A stretch of DNA of 44,975 bases, from NCBI GenBank assembly GCA_031281255.1, contig JAITFR010000206.1, positions 1-44,975 of the forward strand. The letters are read 5' to 3'. Shown here in pieces: positions 1,730-20,290 of this stretch. How positions within the stretch are numbered: position 1 is the first letter of the stretch; each line of letters opens with the position of its first letter. The DNA is from Oscillospiraceae bacterium. Lineage in GTDB: Bacteria; Bacillota; Clostridia; Oscillospirales; Oscillospiraceae. A program made the position numbers and the translations under genes. The notes under the pieces are model-generated. The model was not told the DNA's origin, did no database searches, and saw nothing but the letters and a program-made list of their open reading frames with translations.

Positions 1730-3328
1730 TTACTTTTTATCGCCAAAGCGTTTTATCATCTCAATAATATTATCAATATCAATTGGTTTAGCTAAGTGTC
1801 CATTCATACCACTTTCGAGACATCTTTCTATATCTTCTTTAAATACATTAGCTGTTATAGCGATTATCGGTATAGTTTTTGCTCTTTCAAAATCAAAAGC
1901 ACGGATTGTCCTTGTGGCTTCATATCCATCCATAACAGGCATTTGAACGTCCATCACAATGATATTGTACCGATCGGGATTATCCTTAAATAACTGCACA
2001 GCATCAAAACCGTTTTCTGCAATATCTATGTTTATTTTTGTATCTTCTAGTAACGATATTAGGATAGTTCTGTTGATATCAACATCTTCAGCGAGTAATA
2101 AGTAATAATCTGAGAAATCAGGTGTGCTACTTTCTTTACCGGATTGCTCTTCTTCAAGAAGATGCTCTATATCGTCCGCTTGAGCATGTTCAAGTCTTAC
2201 CTTAAATGTAAAAGTGGTACCTTTATTAATTTCAGATTTTACGGAAATATTTCCATCCATCATTTCAACAATATTTTTTGAAATTGCAAGACCAAGTCCT
2301 GTTCCACCAAATATTCTTGCCGTGTCACTTTGAGCTTGCTCAAACGCAGTAAACAGTCTTTTTATTTGCTCATCATTCATACCGATGCCGGTATCACTAA
2401 CTGAAATACTAATTACACTATGATTCTCATCAATATGTGTTTCCTCCGCTGTAAGCTCAATTTTTCCACCTTCCGGCGTGAACTTTGCAGCATTAGAAAG
2501 CAGATTTGCAATAACTTGTGAAAGTCTAAGCTCATCACTTATATAGTGTTTTCTCATTCCTGACTTAAAGTCAACAACAAAATCTATATCGCCTTCTCTT
2601 ACTTTTTCGACAATAAGAGCACTTGTTAGAGAGAATATTCTTTCTAAGTTAATTGGAGCATACTCAAGCTCAAGCTTCCCGGCTTCTATTTTGGAAAGGT
2701 CGAGTATATCGTTTATAAGTCTTAACAAATGAGTTGATGAGTTTTCGATGTTTGTTAAACAGTCTCTGATTTTTTCGATATCGTCTGATTTTTCTGCAAT
2801 TTTTGACATACCAATAATTGCATTCATCGGGGTGCGTATCTCGTGACTCATGTTAGCAAGGAAGTTACTTTTTGCATTTGTAGCTTCCTCAGCTCGTGCC
2901 AAAGCATCCCCAAGTTTTTCATTACTCTCTTTTAAAAGATTTGCATGATGAGCAAACAATATTTGGTTTTCAATTCGTTTTAATAACAAGGGTGCAGAAA
3001 ATGGCTTAAACATATAGTCTGATGCTCCAAGGCTTAAACCATGAATTTCACTGTTATCATCACTTCTTGCTGTTAAAAATATGACCGGTATTTCTTTATA
3101 ACGAGGGTCTTCTTTTAATTTTGTTATTACCTCATAACCATTCATTTCAGGCATTTCTATATCTAACAAGATTAAATCCGGTATTACATTTTTTTCTAAA
3201 TATGAAAATAGCTTAGCACCTGATGAAGCAGGATAAACCTGGTAATAGGGTTTTAAAATACTCCTGCCTTGATCTAAGTTGGCTTTCACATCATCAACTA
3301 GTATAATTATTTTTCTTTCGTTTTCCAC
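1730..3328 (-). CDS. Hybrid histidine kinase: REC-HisKA-HATPase_c-REC
   Basis: REC1 ILVDDVKAN...LILLDIEMPEMNG; HisKA MSHEIRTPMNAIIG; FGGTGLGLAIS; REC2 IIVMDVQMPVMDG. Confidence 0.95.
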   Translation of the reverse strand: MENERKIIILVDDVKANLDQGRSILKPYYQVYPASSGAKLFSYLEKNVIPDLILLDIEMPEMNGYEVITKLKEDPRYKEIPVIFLTARSDDNSEIHGLSLGASDYMFKPFSAPLLLKRIENQILFAHHANLLKESNEKLGDALARAEEATNAKSNFLANMSHEIRTPMNAIIGMSKIAEKSDDIEKIRDCLTNIENSSTHLLRLINDILDLSKIEAGKLELEYAPINLERIFSLTSALIVEKVREGDIDFVVDFKSGMRKHYISDELRLSQVIANLLSNAAKFTPEGGKIELTAEETHIDENHSVISISVSDTGIGMNDEQIKRLFTAFEQAQSDTARIFGGTGLGLAISKNIVEMMDGNISVKSEINKGTTFTFKVRLEHAQADDIEHLLEEEQSGKESSTPDFSDYYLLLAEDVDINRTILISLLEDTKINIDIAENGFDAVQLFKDNPDRYNIIVMDVQMPVMDGYEATRTIRAFDFERAKTIPIIAITANVFKEDIERCLESGMNGHLAKPIDIDNIIEMIKRFGDKK

Positions 3329-3362
3329 TGTTTTTCTCCATAATAAGTTGGTTGGTTAATTA

Positions 3363-6300
3363 TTAACTGTAATCCTCGATGATAGATTGTAGTTTTTCAT
3401 TAATTTCATCAAAATTACCATCAGCCACATTATCTCTAAGCCACGTAACTAAACCTGTGTCGTTTCTATAAACACATTTGTCTAACTCATGCATAGCAGC
3501 ATCCAAGTCGTCCATATCGTACTTTTCACATGAAGCCATCATCTTTAATAACACATCTTTATCAGGTCTGTCTTTAATTTCTTTTGGATCTCTGTCTTTG
3601 ATTTCATAAAGCATACTTCCAATATCATCTATTAATGAATAAGCTGCTTTAAGGAATAAAACATTGTTAGTTGCTACATACTCATAATTATTATCTGCGG
3701 CTTCTGATTCTAGTTTATCTGCCATATCACCAACAGCATTAGCATATATTCCACGACTGGAACTTTTTAATCCATGGATATCAATAGCATACTCTATTAA
3801 TTTACTGTTGCTTACTTTTTCAATTCTTTTGAGAATTGGTATTGTGTTTGATACATATGAACGTAAAATCCCTAAATATGTAGTTTCGTCACCATATCGG
3901 GAAATACCTCTTTGAATATCTAAACCATCGATTTTCATAGTGGCTAACATTGCACTTATCGCCTCTTGATCATCAGAAGATTCCACACTATACACTTCTT
4001 CTTCATCATCTTTTTTCACCCATTTATGGATTACTTCATCTAGGCGTACAATATCTATCGGTTTTGTAAGAAACGCCTGGAAACCTTCATCTAAGAACAT
4101 TTGTTCACTGCCTACAACTGCATTTGCAGTTAGTGCAACAATGGGTACATTCTTAGTGTATTCTGTGTTTAGCTCACGAATACGCATTGCTGCTTCTATA
4201 CCATCCATTTCCGGCATCATATAATCCATAAATATTGTGTCATACGTTATTTTTTCATTTAACATAGCTTTTATTGCCTCAGCACCACTCTCTACACAGT
4301 CAACTTGCATACTGTATAATCTTAACAATCCCTTTGCAATATCAAGGTTTGTTAGGTTATCATCAACAACAAGAACACGTGCTTTAGGTAGTTGAATTCT
4401 TGAGAATCTAACATTATGGTTTCTCTTTAGATCAGAATAACTAAATTGCTGTAAGCTGCTTACAACTTCCGGACCTATCTTTGTATTAGATAAATATCCT
4501 TGTAAAATCTTAACTGTGAATGTGCTACCCTTACCATACTCACTTTTTACATTTATTGTACCATTCATTAATTCCACGAGATTTTTTGTAATTGAAAGAC
4601 CAAGACCCGTACCTTCAATTTTTGCATTTGACCTGAGGTCCAGTTGAGAGTAGTCTGTAAACAGTTTGTCAATATCCTCTTTTTGTATACCTCTGCCTGT
4701 ATCTTTTACTTGGATTATTAACCAAACTGAATTCTTTTCTTTTGCACAGTTTACGTTAAACTCAACAGTTCCCTCTTTTGTGTACTTTATAGCATTTGAC
4801 AGGAGATTGTTCATTATTTGCTTGATTCTTAACTCGTCACCATAAAGAATAGAGTATAAATCTTCACTAATGTTTAGCTTAAAATTGATTGGTTTTTCGT
4901 TAATGCGTATTATGTTTTGCATGATTGTATCATTTATTAAGCTCGGTACATCATAACAAGCCGGTACAAGCTCCAACTTGCCTGCTTCAATTTTTGAAAT
5001 ATCAAGAATATCGTTAACCAGATTTAGTAGAATAGTACCGGCTGTGTGAATCTTTTCGATGTTAATTCGATCTTCACGGCTGATACCATCACCTTCGAGT
5101 GACAAATCAGACATTCCAATAACTGCATTTAGAGGCGTGCGCATATCGTGGCTCATTCTTGCAAGGAAGTCACTTTTTGCACGGTTTGCTACTTGTGCTT
5201 CTATAAGTGATGATTCTACTTCTTCTTTAAGTCTGATTTGATCTCGCATATCATAAATATATCCGAGCATAATGAACTTATTGTCCCTGTACATACGTGT
5301 CATAGTAAGCTCAACAGGTAATGGTTTTCCATCAGGTGTTAAGTGAATCCACTCAACTTTTATTGTTTCGCCTCTTATAACTCTTTTCATGATTTTTTTA
5401 GCTTTATCAATTGAGTTTTTTCCATCAGGTTGAAGTTCCGGGAAATGTGCTTGTGTACCAAAGAACTTACTATAATATTCTTTTGAAACACCATACATAT
5501 CCAATACAACATCATTACAATCAATGAATGTTAAGTTTTCATCAAATAATGTTAGACCAACAGGAGCATTTTCGAGCATTATTTCAACTTCACGTTTTAG
5601 AAGTTTTTCTTCACGTAAATCACGTGAATATGCTGCAACAACATAATCATCTTTATACAATACACGGACAAGAGTAGATTCAACAGGAACAATAGTTCCG
5701 TCAGAAAGCATATGCGACCATTCAAATACTACACGACCATCTTCAAATGCTTTTTGTAACATTCTGCTGGCTTTTTCCTCTGAGTTTTGTCCATCTGCCT
5801 GATATTCCGGTGTAAACTCAAAAACCCTGTCGATGTATTCTTGTTTGTTTTTTAGTCCAAAAAACTCTACTGTTGCCTGGTTGCAATCAATAATGTTTTG
5901 GTTAGCATCCCAAAGCTCGCAACATAATGGAGTTGAGTCGAGCATAATTCTCATATGGTCTTCTGCAATTTGGAGTTCTTTTTTGAGTCTTAATTCCTCA
6001 CGTAAATCTTGTGTATACGATGCGATAACATAATCATTACCGTATTTTAGTTTTATTAAAGAAACTTTTGCCGGCATCAAAGTGCCATCCATTAATTTAT
6101 ATGTCCAATCGCAATCACATCTACCATTTTTTAATGCTTCTTTAAGATAAACTTTTACTTGATCAACTGATTTTGTTCCGTCAGGTTGGTATTCCGGATA
6201 CAGGTCTTCATATTTCTCAAAGAACTCTTGTTTATCCTTAAATCCTAACAGTCTAAGTGCTTCTTTATTACAATCGATTTTTTCAAAGGTTTTTGCATCA

Positions 6301-7319
6301 AATAACTGGCATGACATTGGGTTTGAGTCGAGCATCAATGCTGTTCGTTCGTTAGCTTCGTTGATTTTGTTTTCCATTTCGTTACGAATGACTGCACTGG
6401 CGTATAAAAAAGCACCGGAACGCATTATCTCAACACAATTTTCATCAAAATACCGTTCATCTTCGTGGTCTTCTAAGAGTGCAAATCCCCAAAACTCATC
6501 ACCAATAAATATTGGCGTTACAAAAACTGACACAATACCGGCTGCTTTTAATACTTTAGTTTCTTCTCCAACAATTAAACTAACCGGACTGTTAACAATT
6601 TCATTGTTGGCTAATTTTTCTCCCCAGTTTGGCGCTACCACAGAGTATGGTATATTCACATATTTTGGATTAGGCTCTGTAGTCCCACCGGCTTCTCTTT
6701 CCCAGCGGTATATTTGTGCAGCTCCTAAACCTCCGTCAGGTAGAGTAAAGTTGCGAAATAGTGAGAACCTATCGATGGCGAATAAATCAGCAACCTGCCA
6801 AATACCATCAGATAGTGTTTTCTCAAATGTTCCGCTGCTTTTTGATATGAGCATAATAGCAGTTTTATTTAAAGCGTTAAGCATGGTTTCACGGTCATTT
6901 TTATCCGTAACATCCATAACAGCACCTGCAACTCTAAGAGGTATACCATCATCATCACGTTGTGTTGTTCCTAAAGCTCGAAAATGTCTATAATTACCAT
7001 TTTTATGCATCAATCTGTATTCAATATCATACGGTGTGTTTCCGGTATGGTCGGATATATGAGCTTCAAATGCATCTAAGACTGTTTTACTTTCGTCCGG
7101 ATGCATACGGCTGCTCCAACTATGAAGAACATCCGGAAAATCATTTTCATCCTTAAAGCCTAACATTTCACGAAACTCATTTGACCACGTAAACTTATTT
7201 TCAGGATTAATAGGGTCGCCACTGACAACATCCATATCCCACAAAGCGATGTTAAGAGCATCGTTTGCAAGCTTGTATTTCATTAAGTCATATTCATATT
7301 TTGATTGTAAATTATCCAT
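3363..7319 (-). CDS. Multi-sensor hybrid histidine kinase: PAS-GAF-PAS-PAS-PAS-HisKA-HATPase_c-REC-Hpt
   Basis: N-terminal PAS_3-like domain, GAF-like segment, three similar PAS repeats each with an (I/F)DCN motif, MSHDMRTPLNAVIG, IEGTGLGLSIT, IFMDYMMPEMDG, Hpt motif IHGLKSSS. Confidence 0.93.
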   Translation of the reverse strand: MDNLQSKYEYDLMKYKLANDALNIALWDMDVVSGDPINPENKFTWSNEFREMLGFKDENDFPDVLHSWSSRMHPDESKTVLDAFEAHISDHTGNTPYDIEYRLMHKNGNYRHFRALGTTQRDDDGIPLRVAGAVMDVTDKNDRETMLNALNKTAIMLISKSSGTFEKTLSDGIWQVADLFAIDRFSLFRNFTLPDGGLGAAQIYRWEREAGGTTEPNPKYVNIPYSVVAPNWGEKLANNEIVNSPVSLIVGEETKVLKAAGIVSVFVTPIFIGDEFWGFALLEDHEDERYFDENCVEIMRSGAFLYASAVIRNEMENKINEANERTALMLDSNPMSCQLFDAKTFEKIDCNKEALRLLGFKDKQEFFEKYEDLYPEYQPDGTKSVDQVKVYLKEALKNGRCDCDWTYKLMDGTLMPAKVSLIKLKYGNDYVIASYTQDLREELRLKKELQIAEDHMRIMLDSTPLCCELWDANQNIIDCNQATVEFFGLKNKQEYIDRVFEFTPEYQADGQNSEEKASRMLQKAFEDGRVVFEWSHMLSDGTIVPVESTLVRVLYKDDYVVAAYSRDLREEKLLKREVEIMLENAPVGLTLFDENLTFIDCNDVVLDMYGVSKEYYSKFFGTQAHFPELQPDGKNSIDKAKKIMKRVIRGETIKVEWIHLTPDGKPLPVELTMTRMYRDNKFIMLGYIYDMRDQIRLKEEVESSLIEAQVANRAKSDFLARMSHDMRTPLNAVIGMSDLSLEGDGISREDRINIEKIHTAGTILLNLVNDILDISKIEAGKLELVPACYDVPSLINDTIMQNIIRINEKPINFKLNISEDLYSILYGDELRIKQIMNNLLSNAIKYTKEGTVEFNVNCAKEKNSVWLIIQVKDTGRGIQKEDIDKLFTDYSQLDLRSNAKIEGTGLGLSITKNLVELMNGTINVKSEYGKGSTFTVKILQGYLSNTKIGPEVVSSLQQFSYSDLKRNHNVRFSRIQLPKARVLVVDDNLTNLDIAKGLLRLYSMQVDCVESGAEAIKAMLNEKITYDTIFMDYMMPEMDGIEAAMRIRELNTEYTKNVPIVALTANAVVGSEQMFLDEGFQAFLTKPIDIVRLDEVIHKWVKKDDEEEVYSVESSDDQEAISAMLATMKIDGLDIQRGISRYGDETTYLGILRSYVSNTIPILKRIEKVSNSKLIEYAIDIHGLKSSSRGIYANAVGDMADKLESEAADNNYEYVATNNVLFLKAAYSLIDDIGSMLYEIKDRDPKEIKDRPDKDVLLKMMASCEKYDMDDLDAAMHELDKCVYRNDTGLVTWLRDNVADGNFDEINEKLQSIIEDYS

Positions 7320-7355
7320 CTTAAACTCCTGTTTCTCGTCTAACCTAATATTATA

Positions 7356-9545
7356 CTAAAAACCAGCTTTAATTGCTACCAGTATATCTCTTGCAGCTTC
7401 ACAGTTAAACTCTGCAAGCTCTTTTGCGGTATTTTCCAGTTTATCATTAATATCATCACCAAAATCAAATCCTAATAACGGTTTTATTAATTCCGCTCCT
7501 TCGTCACTGTCGTAATCGATAACAGCACTTAGTGCTTTTCCAACAGCTTCCTGTAGTTCCTCAATGCTTCCCTTTTCTCTTTTAGAAGTAATTTTATCCG
7601 GGAAAATTATTGATAACTTTTTGTGCAATTCCATTAATTTATTGTAAAAATCCGGGAATAGTTCCTGGCAAATTGTTATATTATTATCTTTTGCTTCTGA
7701 TTCAAGATTATACGCTGTTTCGGATAATTCTTTAGCACCTATTGTTGCCAGCATTGATTTCATAGCATGTACAGAAATTGCAAAGGATTCAATGTTTCCA
7801 TTACTCAGATTATCTTTTAATTTTTCACATTCTTCAGGTATTTTTTTGCAACAAAGCTCAACAGATTCAAAATAAAGCTCTTCAAGGTTAGCAACATTAT
7901 TCATACCAACACTTACATTTATTTCAGAGATTTTTTTAATTTCATCAAGAGTTCTGGGCTTTATCATTAATTCTTCAATAACTGTTTCAGTAGATTTTAC
8001 TTTCACTTCATCTGCAAACCAACGCATTAAAGTAGCTGTCATATCACGCATATCAATTGGTTTAGAAACAAAGTCATTAAAACCATTTGCCATAAAAAAC
8101 TCTCTGGCACCTTGTACCGCATTAGCAGTTAGAGCAATAATTGTTAATTCTTTATATTTACCACCTAACTTACGTATTGCTGCAGTAGCTTCAACGCCAT
8201 CCATCTCCGGCATCATATGGTCCATAAATATTAAATCATAATCAATTCTTTTTATCATTTCAATTGCAGCTCTGCCTGATAAAGCAGTATCTGCATCTAT
8301 GTCTGCTAATCCAAGCAGACCCACAGCAACTCTTAAATTAAACTCATTATCGTCTACAACCAGAACTTTAGCATTTGGTAAAGATAGTTTTTTGTTAGAC
8401 GGCATGGCGGCAGCTTTTACTTTTTCTGCACTTCCTCTAATCAGTGGTATTGTTACTGTAAAAATACTACCCTTACCATAATTACTTTTGACATTAATCG
8501 AACCGTTCATCATCTCAATAAAAGATTGGCAGATTGATAAACCAAGACCTGTACCAACTATTTTTCGATTAATCATTGCGTCAACTTGTGAAAATGCATT
8601 AAATAAGTTTTGAAGATCCTCTTGTTTAATTCCTTTTCCTGTATCAGAAATCTCAAATACCAGATTATCTTTGTCACAAAATACTTTTAAGTGAACACTA
8701 CCTTTTTCTGTAAACTTTACTGCATTACCAAGTACATTTATAATTATTTGCCTAAGTCGTACATCATCTCCAAATAAATAGTGAGGTATGTTTTCATCAA
8801 TATCTAAAATAAACTCAAGCCCTTTTTCTTTTGCAACATAGGTAAACATGGAGTAAACATGGTCAGTAAAAACAAGAAAATCATAATCCACTGGGATTAG
8901 TTCCATTTTTCCGGCTTCAATCTTTGACATATCAAGTAAATCGTTTATGATTGTTAAAAGTGATGTAGCTGAGTGAGTTATGGCATTAACATAGTTAGCC
9001 TGCCGCTCATTTAGACCCTCGTGTGTTAATAATTCCAACATACCTATGATAGCGTTCATAGGTGTTCGTATTTCGTGAGACATACTTGCAAGAAATGATG
9101 ATTTTGAACGATTTGCTGATTCCGCAGTTGCTATTGCTTCCTCTTTGTATTGTATCTGCGTAGTTCTTTCACTTAAAAGTTCTGCAATATCTAAATGTAT
9201 TTTGATCCGGTTTTGAAGAACCGGCACAGAAAAAGGTTTTGCGATAAAATCAACAGCACCAAGCTGGAGTCCACGTGCTTCGGTGGCAGAGTCAGATATA
9301 GCTGTTAAGAATACAACCGGTATATCTGCACGATCTTTATCCGCTTTTAATAATTGTAATGCTTCAAACCCGTTCATTCCGGGCATTTCAATGTCTAACA
9401 GAATTAAATCAGGTTTAGCCTTATCAATCAGCATAAACATTTTTGCGGCTGAAGGTAGAGTTTTTATTCGATACTTTTCTTGAAGTGCTGCTTTTGCCAT
9501 AGCAAGATTTGTATCATTATCATCTACAACAAAAATCGTTTTCAT
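7356..9545 (-). CDS. Hybrid histidine kinase: REC-HisKA-HATPase_c-REC-Hpt
   Basis: LILLDIEMPGMNG; MSHEIRTPMNAIIGM; VGTGLGLSIC; LIFMDHMMPEMDG; Hpt VHAMKSMLATIGAKEL. Confidence 0.95.
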   Translation of the reverse strand: MKTIFVVDDNDTNLAMAKAALQEKYRIKTLPSAAKMFMLIDKAKPDLILLDIEMPGMNGFEALQLLKADKDRADIPVVFLTAISDSATEARGLQLGAVDFIAKPFSVPVLQNRIKIHLDIAELLSERTTQIQYKEEAIATAESANRSKSSFLASMSHEIRTPMNAIIGMLELLTHEGLNERQANYVNAITHSATSLLTIINDLLDMSKIEAGKMELIPVDYDFLVFTDHVYSMFTYVAKEKGLEFILDIDENIPHYLFGDDVRLRQIIINVLGNAVKFTEKGSVHLKVFCDKDNLVFEISDTGKGIKQEDLQNLFNAFSQVDAMINRKIVGTGLGLSICQSFIEMMNGSINVKSNYGKGSIFTVTIPLIRGSAEKVKAAAMPSNKKLSLPNAKVLVVDDNEFNLRVAVGLLGLADIDADTALSGRAAIEMIKRIDYDLIFMDHMMPEMDGVEATAAIRKLGGKYKELTIIALTANAVQGAREFFMANGFNDFVSKPIDMRDMTATLMRWFADEVKVKSTETVIEELMIKPRTLDEIKKISEINVSVGMNNVANLEELYFESVELCCKKIPEECEKLKDNLSNGNIESFAISVHAMKSMLATIGAKELSETAYNLESEAKDNNITICQELFPDFYNKLMELHKKLSIIFPDKITSKREKGSIEELQEAVGKALSAVIDYDSDEGAELIKPLLGFDFGDDINDKLENTAKELAEFNCEAARDILVAIKAGF

Positions 9546-9587
9546 AGTTATCCCCTTGTTGTTTTAATTATGACTATAAACAACTAT

Positions 9588-10538
9588 TTAGTCATAATCG
9601 TAATAAGTGAAGTCCGGCTCTAAATATCTGCCTATACGTTCCAGAAGTTGTGCTTTGTTAACAGGTTTAATGATAAAGTCATTTGCTCCAACTTTTATAG
9701 CTCTTTGTACTGCATCGGTTTTTGAGTTACCTGTTAAGAATATTATCGGTTTTGTTATACCCATGCTTCTTATATTTTCTGCAAGTTCAAAACCGTCCAT
9801 TTCAGGCATTTCAATATCTAAAATAAATAAATCCGGTGTATTGTTTTTTAAGAAGTTAAGGGCTTGTCTCCCACCATTTATGCAGGTTACTCTATATCCT
9901 GAATCTGATAAAAATGATTTGATAGTTGCCAGGAAAAAGCTTGTATCATCAACAGCTAAAACACTATTTCCACCTGTGTTTTCTTCTTTTATTGAGCTTG
10001 CCGTTGCAGATGTTGCTTTTGTTGTTACAGGTGCCGGTTTTGGTTGCTCTGCAACAGGTTTTTCTTCGGCTGCCGGTGCTTCTGTTGTCACTGCTCCAAC
10101 CATTTCTTCTAAAGATTTCTCAGGAGGATTTTCATAAGCTTTTTCTTCTGCATATTCTTTATCACCGGGTTTGTTTTTGTACTCAAGCATTTGCAAATCT
10201 ATGGAGAGCATAGAAATTGATTTTATGATATCAATTGCAAGTGATTGTAATTCATCATGAGCTGCTTCCTCAATCTTAGTAAGTAACGCTGATGTCTTCT
10301 CAGCTAACTCTTTGGCATGTATTTTTTTCATCATGCCATTTATTGTTGTAACTGAACTTTTTAAAGCTCCATGATCCTTTGCTTTAAGTGCATCCTTTAC
10401 TTTAGTTTCCTGCTCGGGAAACTTTTCAGTAAAACTGTGGACATCATCACAGTATGAGTCAAAATGAGCATCCTCTAATTGGCAAATTAATACAGTATCC
10501 AGCACTTGAATTTCCATAAATTGATCTTTACTAAACAT
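9588..10538 (-). CDS. N-terminal Hpt-like (degenerate) domain plus C-terminal REC response regulator
   Basis: C-terminal SVLAVDDTSFF...LFILDIEMPEMDG...PIIFLTG...FIIKPVNK; N-terminus aligns to Hpt around TTINGMMKKIHAKELAEK but lacks canonical HxxK[GS]. Confidence 0.85.
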   Translation of the reverse strand: MFSKDQFMEIQVLDTVLICQLEDAHFDSYCDDVHSFTEKFPEQETKVKDALKAKDHGALKSSVTTINGMMKKIHAKELAEKTSALLTKIEEAAHDELQSLAIDIIKSISMLSIDLQMLEYKNKPGDKEYAEEKAYENPPEKSLEEMVGAVTTEAPAAEEKPVAEQPKPAPVTTKATSATASSIKEENTGGNSVLAVDDTSFFLATIKSFLSDSGYRVTCINGGRQALNFLKNNTPDLFILDIEMPEMDGFELAENIRSMGITKPIIFLTGNSKTDAVQRAIKVGANDFIIKPVNKAQLLERIGRYLEPDFTYYDYD

Positions 10539-10615
10539 AATCTTACCCTACATTTCTTTATATTTTTGTTAGTTAGTTTTATAGTGTTGGTAATCTGTTA
10601 TAACAGTTTGGTTTT

Positions 10616-13606
10616 CTATGGTTTTAATGCTACAAGTAATTGAATTGCTTTTTCATATTCGTAATTATCTATCAAATCTGCCAGTTTATTTAATCCTTCG
10701 ATTTTGTGCAGCTCTTTGACAAAAGTATTTGCACCAAAATCTCCATCTCTAAGTAATGGCTCAATTTTTTCAAGTAATGCAGATAAATCGTCAGTACCTA
10801 TAGCTTTCCCTTTTGGTCTTAGTGCTTCTTCTTCAATCAGTAAGTATTCGAACTCTCTAAGTGCTAACCTTAACTCTCTTTCAAAAGTACTCAGTTGTTT
10901 TTTTGTATAATCATACGGTTCTTTCATTAATGCTTGCTCTAAAGAATACGCAGCAGCTCGTAATTCTTTTTTACCCAGGTAACCGGCACTGCCTTTTATT
11001 GAATGTGCAATCCTACGGGCTGTTAGCATATCATTGTCGTATATTGCGGCACAAAGCTTATCCCATGTATCTTTGTTTTCTTTTACAAATGTAATAGTAG
11101 TTTTCTTAAGCATTTCGTCAATTTTGTCAGAGCGTACTTGTGCACTTTCTGTTCCACCGATTAAGGTTACTTTATTCTTTGGTAAATATTTCTTCATGAC
11201 ACCGCGTAAAATATCGGTATCAATAGGTTTTGCGACAAAATCATTAAAACCATTAGCAAGGAACATATCTTGTGCACTTTTTAATGTGTTTGCAGTTAAT
11301 GCAATAATTGCCAGATTCTGGTATTTATCACCTTCAAGATTTCGTATCTTATGAACAGTTTCAACACCATCCATTTCAGGCATCATATGATCCATAAATA
11401 CCATGTCATAGTCGTTTTGTTGAATGAGTTTTATGGCTTCAAAACCGCTACTGGCAGTATCTGCAACAATGTTCATCAGCTTTAACAAACCAATTGCTAC
11501 CTTTAAGTTAAAATCGTTATCGTCAGTTACTAATACTTTGGCTTCCGGCGCACTTAAAGTTTGTTCTGTAGCATTTTTCTGCATAATTCTTGAGTCTCCC
11601 AGTTTTATAGGAATCGTAACAGTAAATGTAGTTCCGTACCCATAGTCACTGTCAACTGTAATTGTACCATCCATAAGTTCAACATAAGATTTGCTAATTG
11701 ATAAACCAAGACCCATTCCGACTAAGTTTCTATTTTTAACTTTATCGACCTGTTCAAACGGGTTAAATACAATTGCGAGTGATTCTTTTGTAATACCAAT
11801 GCCTGTGTCTTCTATTTTAAATGTTATATTTTCTTCATCACATGTAACAGTAAGACGTATATATCCCTCATCTGTAAACTTCACAGCATTTGAACAAATA
11901 TTTGTTAAAATCTGTCTTAGTCTTACATCGTCGCCAAAAATACAATCGGGTACATCACTAGCCATTTCAAGTTTAAATAATAAGTTTTTATCAAATGCAA
12001 TATATGTAAATACTGAAGAAATATTGTCAATTAGTTGATGTAAACTAAAATCTACAAGAGTTAACTCTGTACTTCTGGTTTCAATTTTTGACATATCCAA
12101 AACATTGTTAATGATTTCAAGTAAAGAGTTTGCAGATATGCTTATGTCTTCAACAAATCTCATTTGTTGTGTCGAAAGGTTTTCATGCTCCAATAGTTCA
12201 AGCATACCAATGATTGCGTTCATCGGGGTTTTGATTTCGTGTGACATACTGGCTAAAAACTCGGATTTTGTACGATTTGTTTCGCTGGCCACATTAATTG
12301 CAGCTTTTAATCGTTCATTTGCTATTATGAAGTTATCATGCTCTATTTTTACATCCTCAACAGATTTTACTATACAGTTTACCGGAATATTTACATTTAG
12401 AGCAATTTTTCTAGCCATGTCATAACAGGTTTCTGAGCCGCAAGCATAACAATCAACACGTCTTGATTCGAAATCCAGTTTACCAAGTTGAATAAAAGCA
12501 TTTTCTATATCTTCATCAGATATTTCAGGTATTGTAATATCTATCGGTTCATATTTTCTTATAAAATCTGATAGATCAAACTTTTTATCATAATCTTTAT
12601 AAAGGTTTTCAAAATAAGCTTTAGGTTGTTTTTCATCGGCTGCCATTCGCTTATCATACATTGCTTTGTCTATTTCGAATATATTTAGCCCTTCAGAGCA
12701 AGCGGTTCCTATATTACAACCATCAACACAGTTAAGCACATCATATATTATCGGTTTTTTATCGTCCGGTAAACTTTTATAATTATTTAGTTTTTCATAA
12801 ACACTATAACCTTCACCTGTTGTTACATGTATTTTTTTATCAATAATGTATTCTATGTTTTCTTTTAACCCGCCGGGCATTGGGAATAGTGAACCTAAGC
12901 TGCTTTCCTCAAGGTCATACGGTGTTTCTTTTTCAGGTAGGTTAATATTATTGTCTTCTAAATATTTATTAAGCTTTGCAAATGTAACATTATACTCTGC
13001 CATTTCAGTGTTAGTATATTCATCAATTTTGGAAATACATGGAGAAAGTAACGCAAACTTATCAGTCGAGTTATTATACTTTCTTTGATATAATGATGTA
13101 CATGCCATCGGGCTTTGTATTGGAGATAAATATTTCAATAAATCATGTTGATATATTTCGCAGTATAGTACTATAGTAGGACATGGTTGTGTTATCAAAG
13201 GTTTAAAGTTTGTTTCGGTTAAATATCTTATATGAGCCCAGATGCAAATATCTGCTCCGACAGAAACATCATATATCATATTTACACCCAGTTCTTTTAA
13301 GTATGTAAATAGTCTTTGGTACTCCGGTATATTAGTACGAATAGCAGGAGCAACTATTAAAGATATTGGTTCTCCTTTAGATAAATCTTCAAAGAAACGC
13401 TCTGTATCGTCTTTATAGTATCTTGCATCATGATGACAAGCAAATATACATCTGCCACACAATATACATTTTTCTTGATCGATTTCAACTTTTATATCAT
13501 CAAAATCATCTTGAAATGTGATATTTGCAAGCTCCATAGGACATTCTCTGACGCATCGATTGCAACCGGTACACAGATTATTATTCGATTTGATTATTTC
13601 TGTCAT
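10616..13606 (-). CDS. 2x[4Fe-4S] ferredoxin + [FeFe]-hydrogenase large-subunit C-terminal-like domain + 4-Cys Fe-S motif + HisKA-HATPase_c-REC-Hpt
   Basis: CTGCNRCVRECP, CILCGRCIFACH; TQPCPTI, LSPCISK, LNCVDGCNIGTAC; DCYACGSETC...C; MSHEIKTPMNAIIG; VFMDHMMPEMDG; Hpt AHSIKGSAGYLG. Confidence 0.92.
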   Translation of the reverse strand: MTEIIKSNNNLCTGCNRCVRECPMELANITFQDDFDDIKVEIDQEKCILCGRCIFACHHDARYYKDDTERFFEDLSKGEPISLIVAPAIRTNIPEYQRLFTYLKELGVNMIYDVSVGADICIWAHIRYLTETNFKPLITQPCPTIVLYCEIYQHDLLKYLSPIQSPMACTSLYQRKYNNSTDKFALLSPCISKIDEYTNTEMAEYNVTFAKLNKYLEDNNINLPEKETPYDLEESSLGSLFPMPGGLKENIEYIIDKKIHVTTGEGYSVYEKLNNYKSLPDDKKPIIYDVLNCVDGCNIGTACSEGLNIFEIDKAMYDKRMAADEKQPKAYFENLYKDYDKKFDLSDFIRKYEPIDITIPEISDEDIENAFIQLGKLDFESRRVDCYACGSETCYDMARKIALNVNIPVNCIVKSVEDVKIEHDNFIIANERLKAAINVASETNRTKSEFLASMSHEIKTPMNAIIGMLELLEHENLSTQQMRFVEDISISANSLLEIINNVLDMSKIETRSTELTLVDFSLHQLIDNISSVFTYIAFDKNLLFKLEMASDVPDCIFGDDVRLRQILTNICSNAVKFTDEGYIRLTVTCDEENITFKIEDTGIGITKESLAIVFNPFEQVDKVKNRNLVGMGLGLSISKSYVELMDGTITVDSDYGYGTTFTVTIPIKLGDSRIMQKNATEQTLSAPEAKVLVTDDNDFNLKVAIGLLKLMNIVADTASSGFEAIKLIQQNDYDMVFMDHMMPEMDGVETVHKIRNLEGDKYQNLAIIALTANTLKSAQDMFLANGFNDFVAKPIDTDILRGVMKKYLPKNKVTLIGGTESAQVRSDKIDEMLKKTTITFVKENKDTWDKLCAAIYDNDMLTARRIAHSIKGSAGYLGKKELRAAAYSLEQALMKEPYDYTKKQLSTFERELRLALREFEYLLIEEEALRPKGKAIGTDDLSALLEKIEPLLRDGDFGANTFVKELHKIEGLNKLADLIDNYEYEKAIQLLVALKP

Positions 13607-13633
13607 AAGCTAATAGTCCATTCATATATGTAT

Positions 13634-14545
13634 TTATAAATCTTCTGCTTTTACAATTCTATTTCTGCCTAATTCTTTGGCTTTGTATAGTGCAAGGTCT
13701 GCTTTTTCGAAGAACTCTTTCATAGGTGTATCTAACTCGGGAACAACACAGTTAATTCCAATACTAACAGTAACACTTGTTTGTGTGTCTTCATCAATAG
13801 GAATTGTCATCTCTTCTATATTAACTCGTATTCTCTCAGCTATTTCCATTGCACCTTCAATTCCTGTATCGGGAAGAAGTACAACAAACTCTTCACCACC
13901 CCAACGTGCAACAAAATCCGCAGCACGGTGAAGTGAATCTATTGTTGTATCTGCAAATGCCTGTAGAGCTACATCACCTTGTTGGTGTCCGTATGTGTCA
14001 TTATAGATTTTGAAAAGGTCTATGTCCATTATTAAGAAGCTAATGGGAATATTTTCACGTATTGCTCTACCCCACTCAGCCTCAAATCTATCTTCAAAAC
14101 CACGTCTGTTGGCAATCTTTGTAAGTGGGTCAATCAGACCTATTCTCTCTATTGTACGCATTTGATCAACAATTCTCATATGCGTTTTTACTCTGGCTTT
14201 AACAATAGCATTGTTAAATGGTTTGGTAATGTAATCAACAGCACCTAAGAAGAAACCTCTTTGCTCATCTTCTGTACTGGACAAGCCTGTGATAAATATT
14301 ACCGGTATATTTGCCGTATCATTACTTGCTTTAAGAGCAGTAATAACTTCAAATCCTGTCATTTCAGGCATCATAACATCAAGGAGTATAAGGTCCGGCT
14401 TTTTTTCTTTCGCCAGTTCCAGAGTTCTTGCTCCGCTTTTTGCAACAAGTATGTTGTAATAAGGAGATAATATACCTGCCAGTATATCTAAGTTCGACTT
14501 TTCATCATCAGTTGTTAGTACCGTAAACTCTTTCTTTTCACTCAT
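13634..14545 (-). CDS. REC-GGDEF diguanylate cyclase
   Basis: LILLDVMMPEMTG; ARWGGEEFVVLLP active site; RAAD five residues before GGEEF matches the inhibitory I-site RxxD. Confidence 0.96.
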   Translation of the reverse strand: MSEKKEFTVLTTDDEKSNLDILAGILSPYYNILVAKSGARTLELAKEKKPDLILLDVMMPEMTGFEVITALKASNDTANIPVIFITGLSSTEDEQRGFFLGAVDYITKPFNNAIVKARVKTHMRIVDQMRTIERIGLIDPLTKIANRRGFEDRFEAEWGRAIRENIPISFLIMDIDLFKIYNDTYGHQQGDVALQAFADTTIDSLHRAADFVARWGGEEFVVLLPDTGIEGAMEIAERIRVNIEEMTIPIDEDTQTSVTVSIGINCVVPELDTPMKEFFEKADLALYKAKELGRNRIVKAEDL

Positions 14546-14575
14546 AATATTGATTTCCTTCTCTTACTTTATAAT

Positions 14576-17500
14576 TTAGATGTTTTCTTTGTATTCATCA
14601 ATAATTTCTGCTGCTTCCATAAAATCACTATGCAATAATTTTTCTGTAATTTTACGGATAAGTTCATTTACAGATTTTGATTTAATTTTTGATTTTAATT
14701 CTTCCATAACAATCTCTGCTTCTCTCTCATCAAAATCTTCACAATAATTTTTTATCTTTGTTAACAATTCTTTAAGTAAATCTTTATCTATCTCTGTACT
14801 ATCTGAATCGTCTCCAACCTCTCCTTCTTTTGGAGTGATTTTATCGACATATTCTTGTAATAATCTTAAGAAGTTTGGTGTTTCTGTTTCAATAATTTCT
14901 TCGTTTTTCTCACGTCCTGTGTGTTCTAATTTTTTTGCAAATGCTGATAGTTCCTTATTTCCAACATTTGCTAATGCACTTTTTAACCCATGTGTATGTA
15001 TAACATAGTTTTGCATAGCTGTTTCACTAAGTGGGAAACCTGCTGCCATTACTTCATTAAGTACACCAAGTGATTTGTTTGCATCTCTTAAAAATGACTC
15101 AAGAATTAATGGATTAGTCGCCGGACTTAAATCCTCTTCTTGAAGTTCTTCTGCCATTTTTCCTGAAACTTTTCTGGCTTCGGCTAATACTTCATCAGTT
15201 TGTTTATCACGTATAAACTTGTTTAATATTGTATTCATACGGTGCATATCTATTGGTTTTGAGATAAAGTCATCAAATCCATTACTAAGAAATACTTCAG
15301 CCTGACCGGCTACTGCATTTGCAGTGAGTGCTACAACCGGTTCATTATATCCTGATTCACGTATGATTTTAGTAGCTTCCATACCATCCATTTCAGGCAT
15401 CATATGGTCCATAAATACAATGTCAAAAACATTTCCGCTTTTAATTCTGTCAATTGCGGCAAATCCACTGCTTGCTGACTCGATTGTTAGACCATATGGT
15501 CTTAAAAGACCTCTTGCAACATATATATTTGTTTCTACGTCGTCAACAATAAGCACTTTTCCATATGGCATATACTCACGGACTACTTGAGCACGTTTAA
15601 GGTGAGCTCTGCTTGATGTCCGGAAGTTATGAAGATTTTCTGCCATTTCTTCACCAAGTAATTCATCTCCAATTTTCTCTTGTGGTATACGTACTGTAAA
15701 TACAGAACCTTTTCCCATTTCGCTAGATACTTCAATTACACCGTTCATCATATGTATAAGATTACGGGTAATACTTAATCCAAGTCCTGTTCCTTCAGTT
15801 GTACGATTTGCTGCGGTGTTAAAACGTGAGTATTCATCAAAGAGTTTTTCTACTTGTTGTTTACTCATTCCTTGCCCTGTATCAGTTACACTAAGAACAA
15901 GTATTATCTCATTGTCCTTATCAGAACTCTCACAAGAAACTGACAGTGTTACAGTCCCTTCTGATGTATACTTAAAACCATTTGATAATAAATTGTTTAA
16001 AATCTGCTTAACACGCAGTTCATCACCGTTTAGCATTGTAGGTAGTTTTTCATCGACTGTCAGTTCAAAGTTGATAGGTTTGCTGCCAATGCGCATCATG
16101 TTAAGCTGTACAGTATCACTTAACGTACTTGCAACTTCATAATTAGATATAATTAGTTCAAACTTACCTGCTTCGATTTTTGATAAATCAAGAATATCAT
16201 TTATAATACTAAGCAACATATTTCCGGATGAGTATATTCGTTCCAGTCCGGTGCGGACATCTTCTGTAATTCTTTCATCTTGTAAATAAATCTCTGTTAT
16301 ACCCAGTATTGCATTCATTGGTGTGCGAATCTCATGACTCATTGTACTTAGGAATGCACTTTTTGCCTGATTGGCAACTGTTGCCTGGTTAAGTGCTTCT
16401 TCAACTTCGTTTTTCATACGGATTTGTTCACGCAAGTCATATATATAACCAAGACCAACATATCCATTTTTGGTTTTCATACGTACCATTGTGACCTCAA
16501 CAGGCATTGGGCTTCCGTCGGGTAAGCTGTGAAGCCAGTCAGTTGTAATTTTTTCACCTTTCATTACACGTCCAATGATATTTAAACATTTTTCTTGAGT
16601 TCTTTCACCATCCGGTTGAAACTCCGGTGAGTGTGCCTCGCTTCCAAAGAAAGTTTCGTAGAACTCTCTTGTAACACCAAACATATCCAGAACCTTATCA
16701 TTACAATCTATATATTTAAAGTTTTCATCAAAGATAGTAAGTCCAACCGGAGCATTATCAAACATGGTTTCAATTTCTTCTTGCATCTGTTTTTGTTCGC
16801 GTAAATCTCGTGTATATCCGGCAACAATATATTTATCATGATATTTAACACGTACCAACGTGATTTCACATGGGATTGGTTCACCATTAAGCAAACAGTG
16901 CATCCATTGCTCCCGAACATATCCATCATCAAATGCCTTCTGAATAATTCTTTTTGCCATTAAATATGAATCCTCACCATCAGGTTGTCTTTTTGGCGAT
17001 AATTCATGAAACAATTCAAGAAACTCCTGCTTACTGGATAACTGGAACATAGATATACATTCTTCACTGACAGATACACATTTTAAACTTTCATCCCACA
17101 TGGTTATTACATACGGACTGGCATCAAATATCTGCTGAATACGTTCATCTTCTTCTCTTTGTATCTCCATAGTTTTAAGATAAAGATTTTGTTCTTGATT
17201 AGCATTATCAGCTTTTATTTTTGCAAACTCAATACGAATCAAAACAATCATTAGCATAACTGCAAGAGTTGCACCTATGCTACTGATGATTATTACCATC
17301 TCATACAGTTCTCTAAAATATTCATGCTCAGGTATTATTATGATTAAGTGCCAACCGTTTTCTAGCTGTCTGCTAAATAAAAATGACCTGACACCTAAAT
17401 GATTGTTTACTATCTGGTATGTTTCATCTGATTCCTCTGATGTAACACCATAAAATAGTTCTTCCTGGAACTCATTTCGTTCATCAGTGTCAACAATATT

Positions 17501-18196
17501 TTCACCGCGAATTGAATCATCGGGGTGTATTAGTATATTAAACTCATTATCAACTAAAAATCCGTATCCATTTTGAGTTATACTTCTATTTACTACTAAA
17601 TCTCTCAAATATCTAATTTGAAAGTTAATACATATTATTGCAGATGGTTCACCATCAGTGTCAAAAAGTAATCGTGCATACGCAATTTCAAGAACTCGTG
17701 TATCTGTTGCAACATAAGGGGTAGTAATTACTATTTCACCGTTTGCTTCCATTGCGGCATAATACCAGGGACGTCTTGTTGGTCTGTAACCGGGACCGGG
17801 TTCCCACCCGGCACCATCATGAAACACACTGTCTTTAATAAAATATCCATATACACTATGGTAGTTAAGAACATTTATACTTTCTCTAAACTCAAGTGAA
17901 GATGCTGTGGACATAAATCCTGTCATTTCTTCGATACTTGCACCATGGTTATACATATATTCTATTTCATTAGAAATAAAGCTTAAAACAATTTTTGGTT
18001 GATTAAGCAGGTTAGTAACAATAACTGCAGTATCATTCATTGTATTGTTGGTATTGTCAAGATTTTTTTCAGTTAGAATACTGTAAACAAAAAAGCTACT
18101 CGCTACAACCATTACTACAAATGAAATCAATACAAGTAATAATTTCGAGATTAACGATTTTCTAAATAAGCCATTACGTGAAAAAAACTTAGTCAC
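14576..18196 (-). CDS. Membrane hybrid histidine kinase: TM-dCache_1-TM-PAS-PAS-HisKA-HATPase_c-REC-Hpt
   Basis: N-terminal TM; YRPTRRPWYYAA dCache motif; second TM before PAS; MSHEIRTPMNAILG; TEGTGLGLSIT; VFMDHMMPEMDG; Hpt THGLKSALANVG. Confidence 0.93.
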   Translation of the reverse strand: MTKFFSRNGLFRKSLISKLLLVLISFVVMVVASSFFVYSILTEKNLDNTNNTMNDTAVIVTNLLNQPKIVLSFISNEIEYMYNHGASIEEMTGFMSTASSLEFRESINVLNYHSVYGYFIKDSVFHDGAGWEPGPGYRPTRRPWYYAAMEANGEIVITTPYVATDTRVLEIAYARLLFDTDGEPSAIICINFQIRYLRDLVVNRSITQNGYGFLVDNEFNILIHPDDSIRGENIVDTDERNEFQEELFYGVTSEESDETYQIVNNHLGVRSFLFSRQLENGWHLIIIIPEHEYFRELYEMVIIISSIGATLAVMLMIVLIRIEFAKIKADNANQEQNLYLKTMEIQREEDERIQQIFDASPYVITMWDESLKCVSVSEECISMFQLSSKQEFLELFHELSPKRQPDGEDSYLMAKRIIQKAFDDGYVREQWMHCLLNGEPIPCEITLVRVKYHDKYIVAGYTRDLREQKQMQEEIETMFDNAPVGLTIFDENFKYIDCNDKVLDMFGVTREFYETFFGSEAHSPEFQPDGERTQEKCLNIIGRVMKGEKITTDWLHSLPDGSPMPVEVTMVRMKTKNGYVGLGYIYDLREQIRMKNEVEEALNQATVANQAKSAFLSTMSHEIRTPMNAILGITEIYLQDERITEDVRTGLERIYSSGNMLLSIINDILDLSKIEAGKFELIISNYEVASTLSDTVQLNMMRIGSKPINFELTVDEKLPTMLNGDELRVKQILNNLLSNGFKYTSEGTVTLSVSCESSDKDNEIILVLSVTDTGQGMSKQQVEKLFDEYSRFNTAANRTTEGTGLGLSITRNLIHMMNGVIEVSSEMGKGSVFTVRIPQEKIGDELLGEEMAENLHNFRTSSRAHLKRAQVVREYMPYGKVLIVDDVETNIYVARGLLRPYGLTIESASSGFAAIDRIKSGNVFDIVFMDHMMPEMDGMEATKIIRESGYNEPVVALTANAVAGQAEVFLSNGFDDFISKPIDMHRMNTILNKFIRDKQTDEVLAEARKVSGKMAEELQEEDLSPATNPLILESFLRDANKSLGVLNEVMAAGFPLSETAMQNYVIHTHGLKSALANVGNKELSAFAKKLEHTGREKNEEIIETETPNFLRLLQEYVDKITPKEGEVGDDSDSTEIDKDLLKELLTKIKNYCEDFDEREAEIVMEELKSKIKSKSVNELIRKITEKLLHSDFMEAAEIIDEYKENI

Positions 18197-18263
18197 ACCT
18201 ACACCTTCATTTCATAAGTGGTCGAATAGTCTAAATATATATTTATTATTTTATCGTTTTATA

Positions 18264-19316
18264 TTAAGCTATTTGTTTTCTTATTTCAGCAAACTTATCT
18301 TTTGCTTTGAAGAAAACCTCTGCAATATTTGGATCGAATTGTGTTCCTGCATTTTCCATAATAATACCTACAGCAACTTCTTCAGAAAATGCTTTTTTGT
18401 ATGGGCGTTCTGATACGAGTGCATCATATACGTCTACTATAGCCATTAGTCTGCCATGTAAAGGAATATCTGTTCCTGCAAGACCTCGCGGATAACCTTT
18501 GCCATCCCAACGCTCATGATGTGACCCTGCAAACAGTCTTGCACTTTCAAGAAACTCAACATCATCTGTGCGTAATGCTATTTGGTCGATTGCATCTTCA
18601 CCTGCTAATGTATGGTTTTTCATAATAGTGAACTCATCGTCTGTTAGTTTTCCGGGTTTGTTTAGAATAACATCAGAAATAGCAATCTTACCAACATCGT
18701 GTAGTCTGGCTGATGATATAACTAAGTCATTGTTAAGTGTACTAAGCTCATCAACATATATTGAGTTTTCTTCCATTTTATCCATTAGTACTTTTAGATA
18801 TGTGGATGTACGTTCGATGTGTCCGCCTGTTCCTTCGTCTCTATTTTCTACCAGGTCTGCAAATCCGAATATAACAGCGTTTTGAAGTTTTTCCAGTTTT
18901 TCTGTTTTTTGATGTAATTGCTCAGTACGTTCACGTATTATTTCGTCAATATCCAGGTGTGTTTTGATACGGTTTAGCATAACCGGCTCAGAGAATGGTT
19001 TTGTTATAAAGTCTACAACGCCCATTTGGAAACCGTTAACTTCTGTTTCAATGTCAGACAGTCCTGTAAGGAATATAACAGGTATATCTACATACTCTTT
19101 TGTCTCTTTAAGTCTTTTTAGAGCAGCAAATCCATCTATCTCAGGCATTACAATATCAAGTAGTATCAAATCGGGCTTAATGTTTGGTAACAATGAGAAC
19201 ATTTTTTCTGCTGATGGGAATGTCATTACTCGATAATCTTCTTGTAATGCTCTTTTCGCCATCATCAAATTAGTATCGCTGTCATCGACTACAAATATTA
19301 TTTTCTTCACCTTCAT
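18264..19316 (-). CDS. REC-HD-GYP cyclic di-GMP phosphodiesterase (RpfG-like)
   Basis: LILLDIVMPEIDG; ARLHDVGKIAI; KNHTLAGEDAI; HHERWDGKGYPRGL. Confidence 0.96.
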   Translation of the reverse strand: MKVKKIIFVVDDSDTNLMMAKRALQEDYRVMTFPSAEKMFSLLPNIKPDLILLDIVMPEIDGFAALKRLKETKEYVDIPVIFLTGLSDIETEVNGFQMGVVDFITKPFSEPVMLNRIKTHLDIDEIIRERTEQLHQKTEKLEKLQNAVIFGFADLVENRDEGTGGHIERTSTYLKVLMDKMEENSIYVDELSTLNNDLVISSARLHDVGKIAISDVILNKPGKLTDDEFTIMKNHTLAGEDAIDQIALRTDDVEFLESARLFAGSHHERWDGKGYPRGLAGTDIPLHGRLMAIVDVYDALVSERPYKKAFSEEVAVGIIMENAGTQFDPNIAEVFFKAKDKFAEIRKQIA

Positions 19317-19474: not shown

Positions 19475-20290
19475 TCAATTATTGCTATAATGAGCAACAT
19501 CAAAAAAATCAACCTGTCCCTCTTTACTTCTCTCTATTTCTATTTTTTCAGCAATATGAGCAGAATTAATATATCGCTTTAACTCTTTTGTAACGTACTT
19601 AGCAACAAGTTCAGTCATTTTTGAAATATCTTTACAGTCACTATCACGGTAATGATTAAAAGCATCGTAATATTCTAATCTATCAGAAAACTTAACATTA
19701 ATAGGTGGAAAGCCTTCTTTCATAAGATCAAAGTTCATTAACAAACGTCCGGTTCTACCATTACCATCAACAAATGGATGAATTGTTTCAAATATCAAAT
19801 GGAACTCTGCAACTCTTTCTATAATGTGCATTTTGTGAAAATTATTATTGTATTTATGCATAAGGTCTTTCATTCTTGAAGACACTTCTTCTGGTGGACA
19901 AGGAGTAAAAAACCCAACATAGTTTTGTAGATTTCTATAATTTCCTCTATCTTCATCTATCCCACTTAAATAAGTTAAATAATGTATCTTTTTTATAACA
20001 TTTTCGTCAAGTGACTTTTTACCCTTTATTATATCTTCAATATAATAATATGCGTCTTTGTGACCAACAGCATCCATGTGGAACTTCAAAGGCTTTCCAT
20101 CAACAGTGAGTCCTTCTTTTATAACTAAATACGTTTCATCATGCGTAAGTGTACTGCCTTCAATAGCGTTAGAATGATAAGTATTATAAATCATAAAATC
20201 TTCAGATAACCTATGCAAAGCACCAGATGATAATGGTCTTAAACTTTTTAGTTCTGTATACAATTTATTAATATGATTAAAATCAGACAT
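19475..20290 (-). CDS. Fic/DOC family protein, probable AMPylase
   Basis: HPFVDGNGRTGRLLMN Fic motif; N-terminal SNAIEG matches the class II inhibitory helix. Confidence 0.93.
   Translation of the reverse strand: MSDFNHINKLYTELKSLRPLSSGALHRLSEDFMIYNTYHSNAIEGSTLTHDETYLVIKEGLTVDGKPLKFHMDAVGHKDAYYYIEDIIKGKKSLDENVIKKIHYLTYLSGIDEDRGNYRNLQNYVGFFTPCPPEEVSSRMKDLMHKYNNNFHKMHIIERVAEFHLIFETIHPFVDGNGRTGRLLMNFDLMKEGFPPINVKFSDRLEYYDAFNHYRDSDCKDISKMTELVAKYVTKELKRYINSAHIAEKIEIERSKEGQVDFFDVAHYSNN

Follow-up and report, generated by a model that had tools for sequence, protein, structure and literature searches.

A [FeFe]-hydrogenase-like domain that continues in the same chain into a hybrid histidine kinase raises the question of what such a protein senses and what its signal controls. 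The gene lies in a 44,975-nucleotide stretch of DNA from an Oscillospiraceae bacterium (contig JAITFR010000206.1), the whole of which is referred to here as the window. The reading preferred here, with a probability of about 0.5, is that of a cytoplasmic, soluble sensor kinase in which a divergent [FeFe]-hydrogenase has been retuned to sensing and feeds an H2- or redox-gated phosphorelay controlling c-di-GMP.

Sensor Kinase Gene and Domain Layout

In the ORF reading, the sensor kinase spans positions 10616–13606 of the minus strand, begins with ATG, and encodes 996 amino acids (aa), and all features below lie on the same strand. Two ferredoxin-type 4Fe-4S motifs (aa 10–61; 13424–13579; C12, 15, 18, 22 and C47, 50, 53, 57), matched by two Fer4 domains in Pfam at aa ∼10–61, precede a [FeFe]-hydrogenase H-domain (aa 81–300; 12707–13366) with L1, L2, and L3 motifs of TQPCP, SPCISK, and VLNCVDGCNIG, which Pfam recognizes as Fe_hyd_lg_C (E = 2e-24; 87 bits against a cut-off of 22). 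A C-terminal 4Fe-4S motif, Cx2Cx4Cx16C, of the kind described in PMC8163306 follows at aa 386–411 (12374–12451; C386, C389, C394, and C411 in the residue check), where a PF04060-like FeS match at aa 385–404 is weak (16 bits, below the cut-off of 23). Beyond a linker (aa 411–447; 12266–12376), the kinase half comprises HisKA (DHp; aa 447–510; 12077–12268), HATPase_c (aa 558–667; 11606–11935), a receiver domain (REC; aa 691–801; 11204–11536), and Hpt (aa 839–897; 10916–11092), each above the Pfam cut-off, and the hybrid-kinase residues are all present (phospho-acceptor H456 in HisKA, D739 in REC, and H868 in Hpt). A Pfam search of the ORF found no PAS domain. The preliminary description had proposed the same order of two 4Fe-4S motifs, hydrogenase-like domain, four-cysteine motif, HisKA, REC, and Hpt, with which Pfam and the residue check agree, and its positions for C142, C190, C293, C297, C386–C411, and H456 are all exact.

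The ORF is a real gene, neither a chance reading frame nor a decaying one. Its closest ortholog (L042) is 81% identical and syntenic, and the whole-gene dN/dS between the two is 0.08, which rules out a frameshift, a pseudogene, or a chance ORF at 10616–13606; the values for the sensor and kinase parts are 0.04–0.07 and 0.06, respectively.

Hydrogenase Fold and Active-Site Residues

When aa 1–426 were compared with the PDB by sequence, [FeFe]-hydrogenases ranked first (CbA5H, 5e-17; CpI, ∼1e-16), and a profile of 27 relatives raised the hydrogenase match to 4e-30. The hydrogenase fold claimed in the preliminary description is borne out by an AlphaFold model of aa 1–520 (mean pLDDT 78; pTM 0.72; low-confidence stretches at aa 234–245 and 298–315), for which [FeFe]-hydrogenases were 50 of 50 among the Foldseek matches listed (E 6e-16, probability 1.00), with TM-scores of ∼0.5 as computed with the appended kinase helices included. 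A single predicted helix, aa 409–472, begins at about C411, the last cluster cysteine, runs through the linker, bears H456, and so links the C-terminal cluster domain to the DHp domain.

Residue equivalences to CpI were taken from PDB alignments, and conservation was scored across 44 aligned family members. The cubane ligands C142, C190, C293, and C297 (CpI C300, C355, C499, and C503) are invariant in all 44, as are the equivalents of CpI A230, P231, P324, K358, and E361, and the equivalent of S323 is kept in 43. The proton-relay C299 of CpI is proline in every member (P141 in the sensor kinase), so that the retention of the cubane cysteines together with the loss of the relay cysteine, first noted in this one protein, holds for all 44 relatives. 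Likewise, M497 is replaced by Leu in 44/44 (L291 in the sensor kinase) and M353 by Ser in 39/44 (S188), E279 by His, Tyr, or Gln, and E282 mostly by His or Tyr. With C299P and the replacement of E279 and E282, the canonical proton path is lost in the family; C121 and H125, which are mostly conserved, are candidates for an altered path. A further cysteine, C169 (in SPMAC; window positions 13100–13102), is invariant in 44/44 and close in sequence to the equivalents of CpI S323–Q325, and may have a cluster or redox role.

Relatives and Known Sensory Hydrogenases

A contig scan of genomes found 28 sensor loci, all in metagenome-assembled genomes (MAGs), from Oscillospiraceae, other Clostridia, Treponema, Coriobacteriia, Holophagales, and others. 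Several sample codes among these relatives (Emb289, Nt197, and Lab288) match those used in MAG studies of higher-termite guts (PMC7024585), and the habitat of the relatives suggests that the source bacterium also comes from a termite gut. In a tree of 70 H-domains, whose references were local PAS-type and stand-alone proteins rather than TmHydS and TamHydS themselves, the sensor family forms one clade (support 100/100), separate from the local groups A and B, the PAS-type (C-like), and the stand-alone (D-like) proteins. Nearly all of the hybrid kinases group in a single subclade of 27 rows (support 100/99), within which the frame of one member (L065) ends after the sensor. This subclade is made up of termite-gut bacteria of several phyla, with Treponema, Oscillospiraceae, Coriobacteriia, and others interleaved, a pattern that horizontal transfer would be expected to leave in such a tree. 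Kinase fusion also occurs in other lineages, as in a kinase-fused H-domain from elsewhere in the class (L134, not in the tree).

Outside the hybrid-kinase subclade, the output is usually a soluble MCP signaling domain (L017, L020, L022, L059, and L061, among others) and once GGDEF-EAL, and PAS/GAF-kinases are further outputs on the same sensor. The sensor module was found in 20 of 392 genomes of the class, most sampled ones being MCP-fused. Such varied outputs on one sensor mark it as a portable input module, and its presence on chemoreceptors, kinases, and GGDEF-EAL makes one input comparable across outputs. The GGDEF-EAL fusion (L026:202-2868) is possibly a direct H2/redox-controlled c-di-GMP enzyme. 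One Oscillospiraceae MAG has two H-domain kinases ∼7 kb apart (L069:3-2747 and L069:9734-12976), the first with a divergent L1 motif, NQSCPA. H-domain sensor/transducer proteins have reportedly also been described from the same habitat by Ballor et al. in 2012 (Microb Ecol 63:282; title cited in PMC4070709), as hydrogen sensors of termite-gut treponemes.

Among characterized proteins, TamHydS (group D/M2e; PMC8163306, PMC13104023) shares with the sensor kinase the two 4Fe-4S motifs, the H-domain, and Cx2Cx4Cx16C, and the loss of C299, M353S, and M497L are common to both (PMC8163306). TamHydS stands alone with no output domain, whereas the sensor kinase has one in cis, and group D-like local proteins such as L002 of the same genome form a clade apart. 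TmHydS (group C/M2f; PMC10055695) resembles the sensor kinase in cluster layout, C-terminal cluster motif, and altered C299, M353, and M497, but differs in its PAS domain and in M353G and M497S; the PAS-type relatives (L029–L041) fall outside the sensor-kinase clade in the tree. The earlier comparison with HydS-type sensory hydrogenases is therefore apt for the cluster layout, the modified motifs, the lost C299, and the extra C-terminal cluster motif (PMC8163306), but not for the placement of the protein, which belongs to a clade of its own (100/100) that is neither PAS-type C-like nor D and has many MCP-linked members.

Some hydrogenase activity, though low, survives in TamHydS and TmHydS even where residues of the proton path are lost (PMC8163306, PMC10055695). 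By analogy, the sensor kinase could be an active hydrogenase with a kinase attached to report its turnover, or mainly an enzyme, but this has only a slight chance of being correct given C299P in all members, the replaced E279 and E282, a gene run in which Pfam found no partner electron-transfer subunit, and a signaling output on every full-length family protein scanned.

The HydDB classification (PMC5037454) includes a chemotactic, MCP-linked group C2 and a histidine kinase-linked group C1, both putative, which are, like the sensor clade, H-domain proteins proposed to sense H2 via MCPs or histidine kinases; the sensor clade probably falls in C1/C2. Pro at position 299 is found in ∼10% of HydDB group C (PMC10055695) and throughout the sensor clade, and the direct HisKA-HATPase-REC-Hpt fusion is not described in the HydDB paper (PMC5037454). 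In Hydrogenedentota, according to the accessible part of PMC11406978, BfuT proteins of group C3 carry a histidine kinase domain and group C1 proteins an HATPase, likewise with the kinase in cis; the former are linked to bfuABC, H-cluster motifs were hardly found by the authors in the latter, and that part makes no mention of a c-di-GMP operon for either. The same part of PMC11406978, with HydDB C1 (PMC5037454), rules out a first-ever H-domain/kinase fusion, and the sensor kinase represents a variation on a type already known, probably C1/C2.

H-Cluster Maturases and the Nature of the Input

The host genome (G000, 74% complete) encodes a group A HydA and a stand-alone group D-like HydS in addition to the sensor kinase, but the maturase check proposed in the preliminary description went against a canonical route to the H-cluster: in family searches, HydE and HydG were absent from this genome and HydF had no match above the cut-off, and five congeners (G008, G112, G177, G227, and G267; 90–98% complete) had no HydE, HydF, or HydG. 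The same searches detected the maturases in Thermotoga maritima and in four further members of the family, which served as positive controls. HydG occurs in only 56 of 301 genomes of the family; among its 189 high-quality genomes, 140 have a group A HydA and only 32 have HydG, so that at least 108 of the 140 have HydA without HydG. The HydA proteins of maturase-less genomes include several with fully canonical TSCCP/MPC/ACxGGC motifs. Precedents are on record, R. rubrum and Entamoeba being known cases of HydA without HydEFG (PMC4967309), and our search found no publications on HydA-bearing gut Oscillospiraceae that lack HydEFG. These HydEFG-less bacteria either build H-clusters another way or have H-domain proteins that work without the [2Fe] site, which makes H-cluster assembly without canonical maturases a testable question in gut lineages.

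The HydA of the host genome itself (contig C120, L001/L114; L114:4198-5958) reads TSCSPGW, with Ser for the second Cys of TSCCP. A broken H-cluster was considered for it and dropped, the solved A. woodii HydA1 (7q4v) having the same motif. At this locus, HydA is accompanied by the group D-like HydS, itself stand-alone, and by a gene for an ATPase-like protein, an arrangement like that around TamHydS.

Sensing of H2 through a complete H-cluster is plausible for the sensor kinase and yet placed in doubt by the missing HydE, HydF, and HydG. The main rival, which we hold tentatively possible, is that the H-domain contains its [4Fe-4S] cubane and no [2Fe] site, with the kinase responding to redox state at the ferredoxin level or to damage of the clusters, as a redox (or O2/NO) sensor. 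A cubane-only H-domain would parallel the H-domain proteins of the Nar1/NARF type. The absence of maturases from the host and its five congeners, the scarcity of HydG in the family, and the family-specific, invariant C169 near the pocket in sequence speak for it. Set against these are the group A HydA proteins kept by the same genomes, several fully canonical, by which an H-cluster route may exist, and the relatives of the sensor kinase in HydG-bearing genomes, comprising most Treponema MAGs with the sensor (full-length HydG in 7/10 and a fragment in an eighth) and some others. The pocket itself was also compared: a relaxation in HydG-less genomes, which would favor a cubane-only sensor, was not found, and pocket residues are alike in relatives from HydG-bearing and HydG-less genomes and those contacting the [2Fe] site in CpI stay invariant even in the latter.

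Gene Neighborhood and Proposed Signaling

The sensor kinase is the fourth of eight signaling genes in a row on the minus strand (1730–19316; gaps of 27–77 bp), which encode five kinases with REC domains, a REC-GGDEF, a REC-HD-GYP, and a REC protein. Upstream, a REC-GGDEF diguanylate cyclase (13634–14545; GGEEF, RxxD I-site) ends 27 bp from the sensor kinase, preceded by a dCache-PAS hybrid histidine kinase with REC (14576–18196; Hpt just below the Pfam cut-off) and a REC-HD-GYP protein of the c-di-GMP phosphodiesterase type (18264–19316; HHE..DGKGYP). Downstream, Pfam assigns a 316-aa REC protein with no domain in its N-terminal part (9588–10538), a REC-HisKA-HATPase-REC-Hpt hybrid kinase (7356–9545), a PAS hybrid histidine kinase with REC (3363–7319), and a HisKA-HATPase kinase with two REC domains (1730–3328). 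The closest relative (L042) keeps this operon-like eight-gene run in synteny, and in no fewer than 12 distinct loci the sensor kinase has a REC-GGDEF or REC-HD-GYP gene as its neighbor, a raw count from kinase-rich genomes.

Eight consecutive same-strand signaling genes could also mean that the kinase mainly answers partner kinases of the array (the dCache/PAS hybrids) and that its H-domain is a vestigial structural part; this has the slimmest chance of the readings weighed, as purifying selection acts equally on the H-domain (dN/dS 0.07) and the kinase (0.06), and the pocket of the former is invariant across phyla.

Under the preferred reading of an H2- or redox-gated phosphorelay, a change in H2 or redox state would be registered at the H-cluster and the [4Fe-4S] chain, clusters that are presumably occupied. 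To our knowledge, no mechanism of signal transduction is known for sensory [FeFe]-hydrogenases, TmHydS and TamHydS being without an output enzyme in cis. In TamHydS, H2 does not reduce the C-terminal cluster yet alters secondary structure (PMC13104023), which makes a simple redox relay through this cluster doubtful and favors a conformational step. A change in the H-domain may thus shift the C-terminal [4Fe-4S] domain and twist the helix continuous with DHp, gating phosphorylation of H456; since a single soluble chain holds both sensor and kinase, with one predicted helix between them, H2/redox gating could be readable as autophosphorylation. The standard order in hybrid kinases is from the HisKA histidine to the REC aspartate, the Hpt histidine, and a free receiver. 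Phosphate would accordingly be relayed from H456 through D739 and H868 to receivers encoded in the same operon, with the adjacent REC-GGDEF and REC-HD-GYP as the most probable targets, and c-di-GMP would in this way be set by H2 or redox state. The preliminary proposal of an H2 or redox sensor coupled in cis to a phosphorelay and to c-di-GMP thus stands in the fusion and in the c-di-GMP neighbors that recur in relatives, and is weakened, as regards H2 at an H-cluster, by the missing HydE, HydF, and HydG. A more far-reaching form, in which an H-cluster is held in a HydEFG-less lineage and H2 sets c-di-GMP directly via the one-protein phosphorelay, we regard as rather unlikely; if true, it would imply that the [2Fe] subsite is made or acquired by a route not yet known.

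Plasmid carriage of the sensor kinase was considered and set aside, the only match being weak and at the level of the kinase. A Fic/DOC domain protein lies beside the signaling array at 19475–20290.
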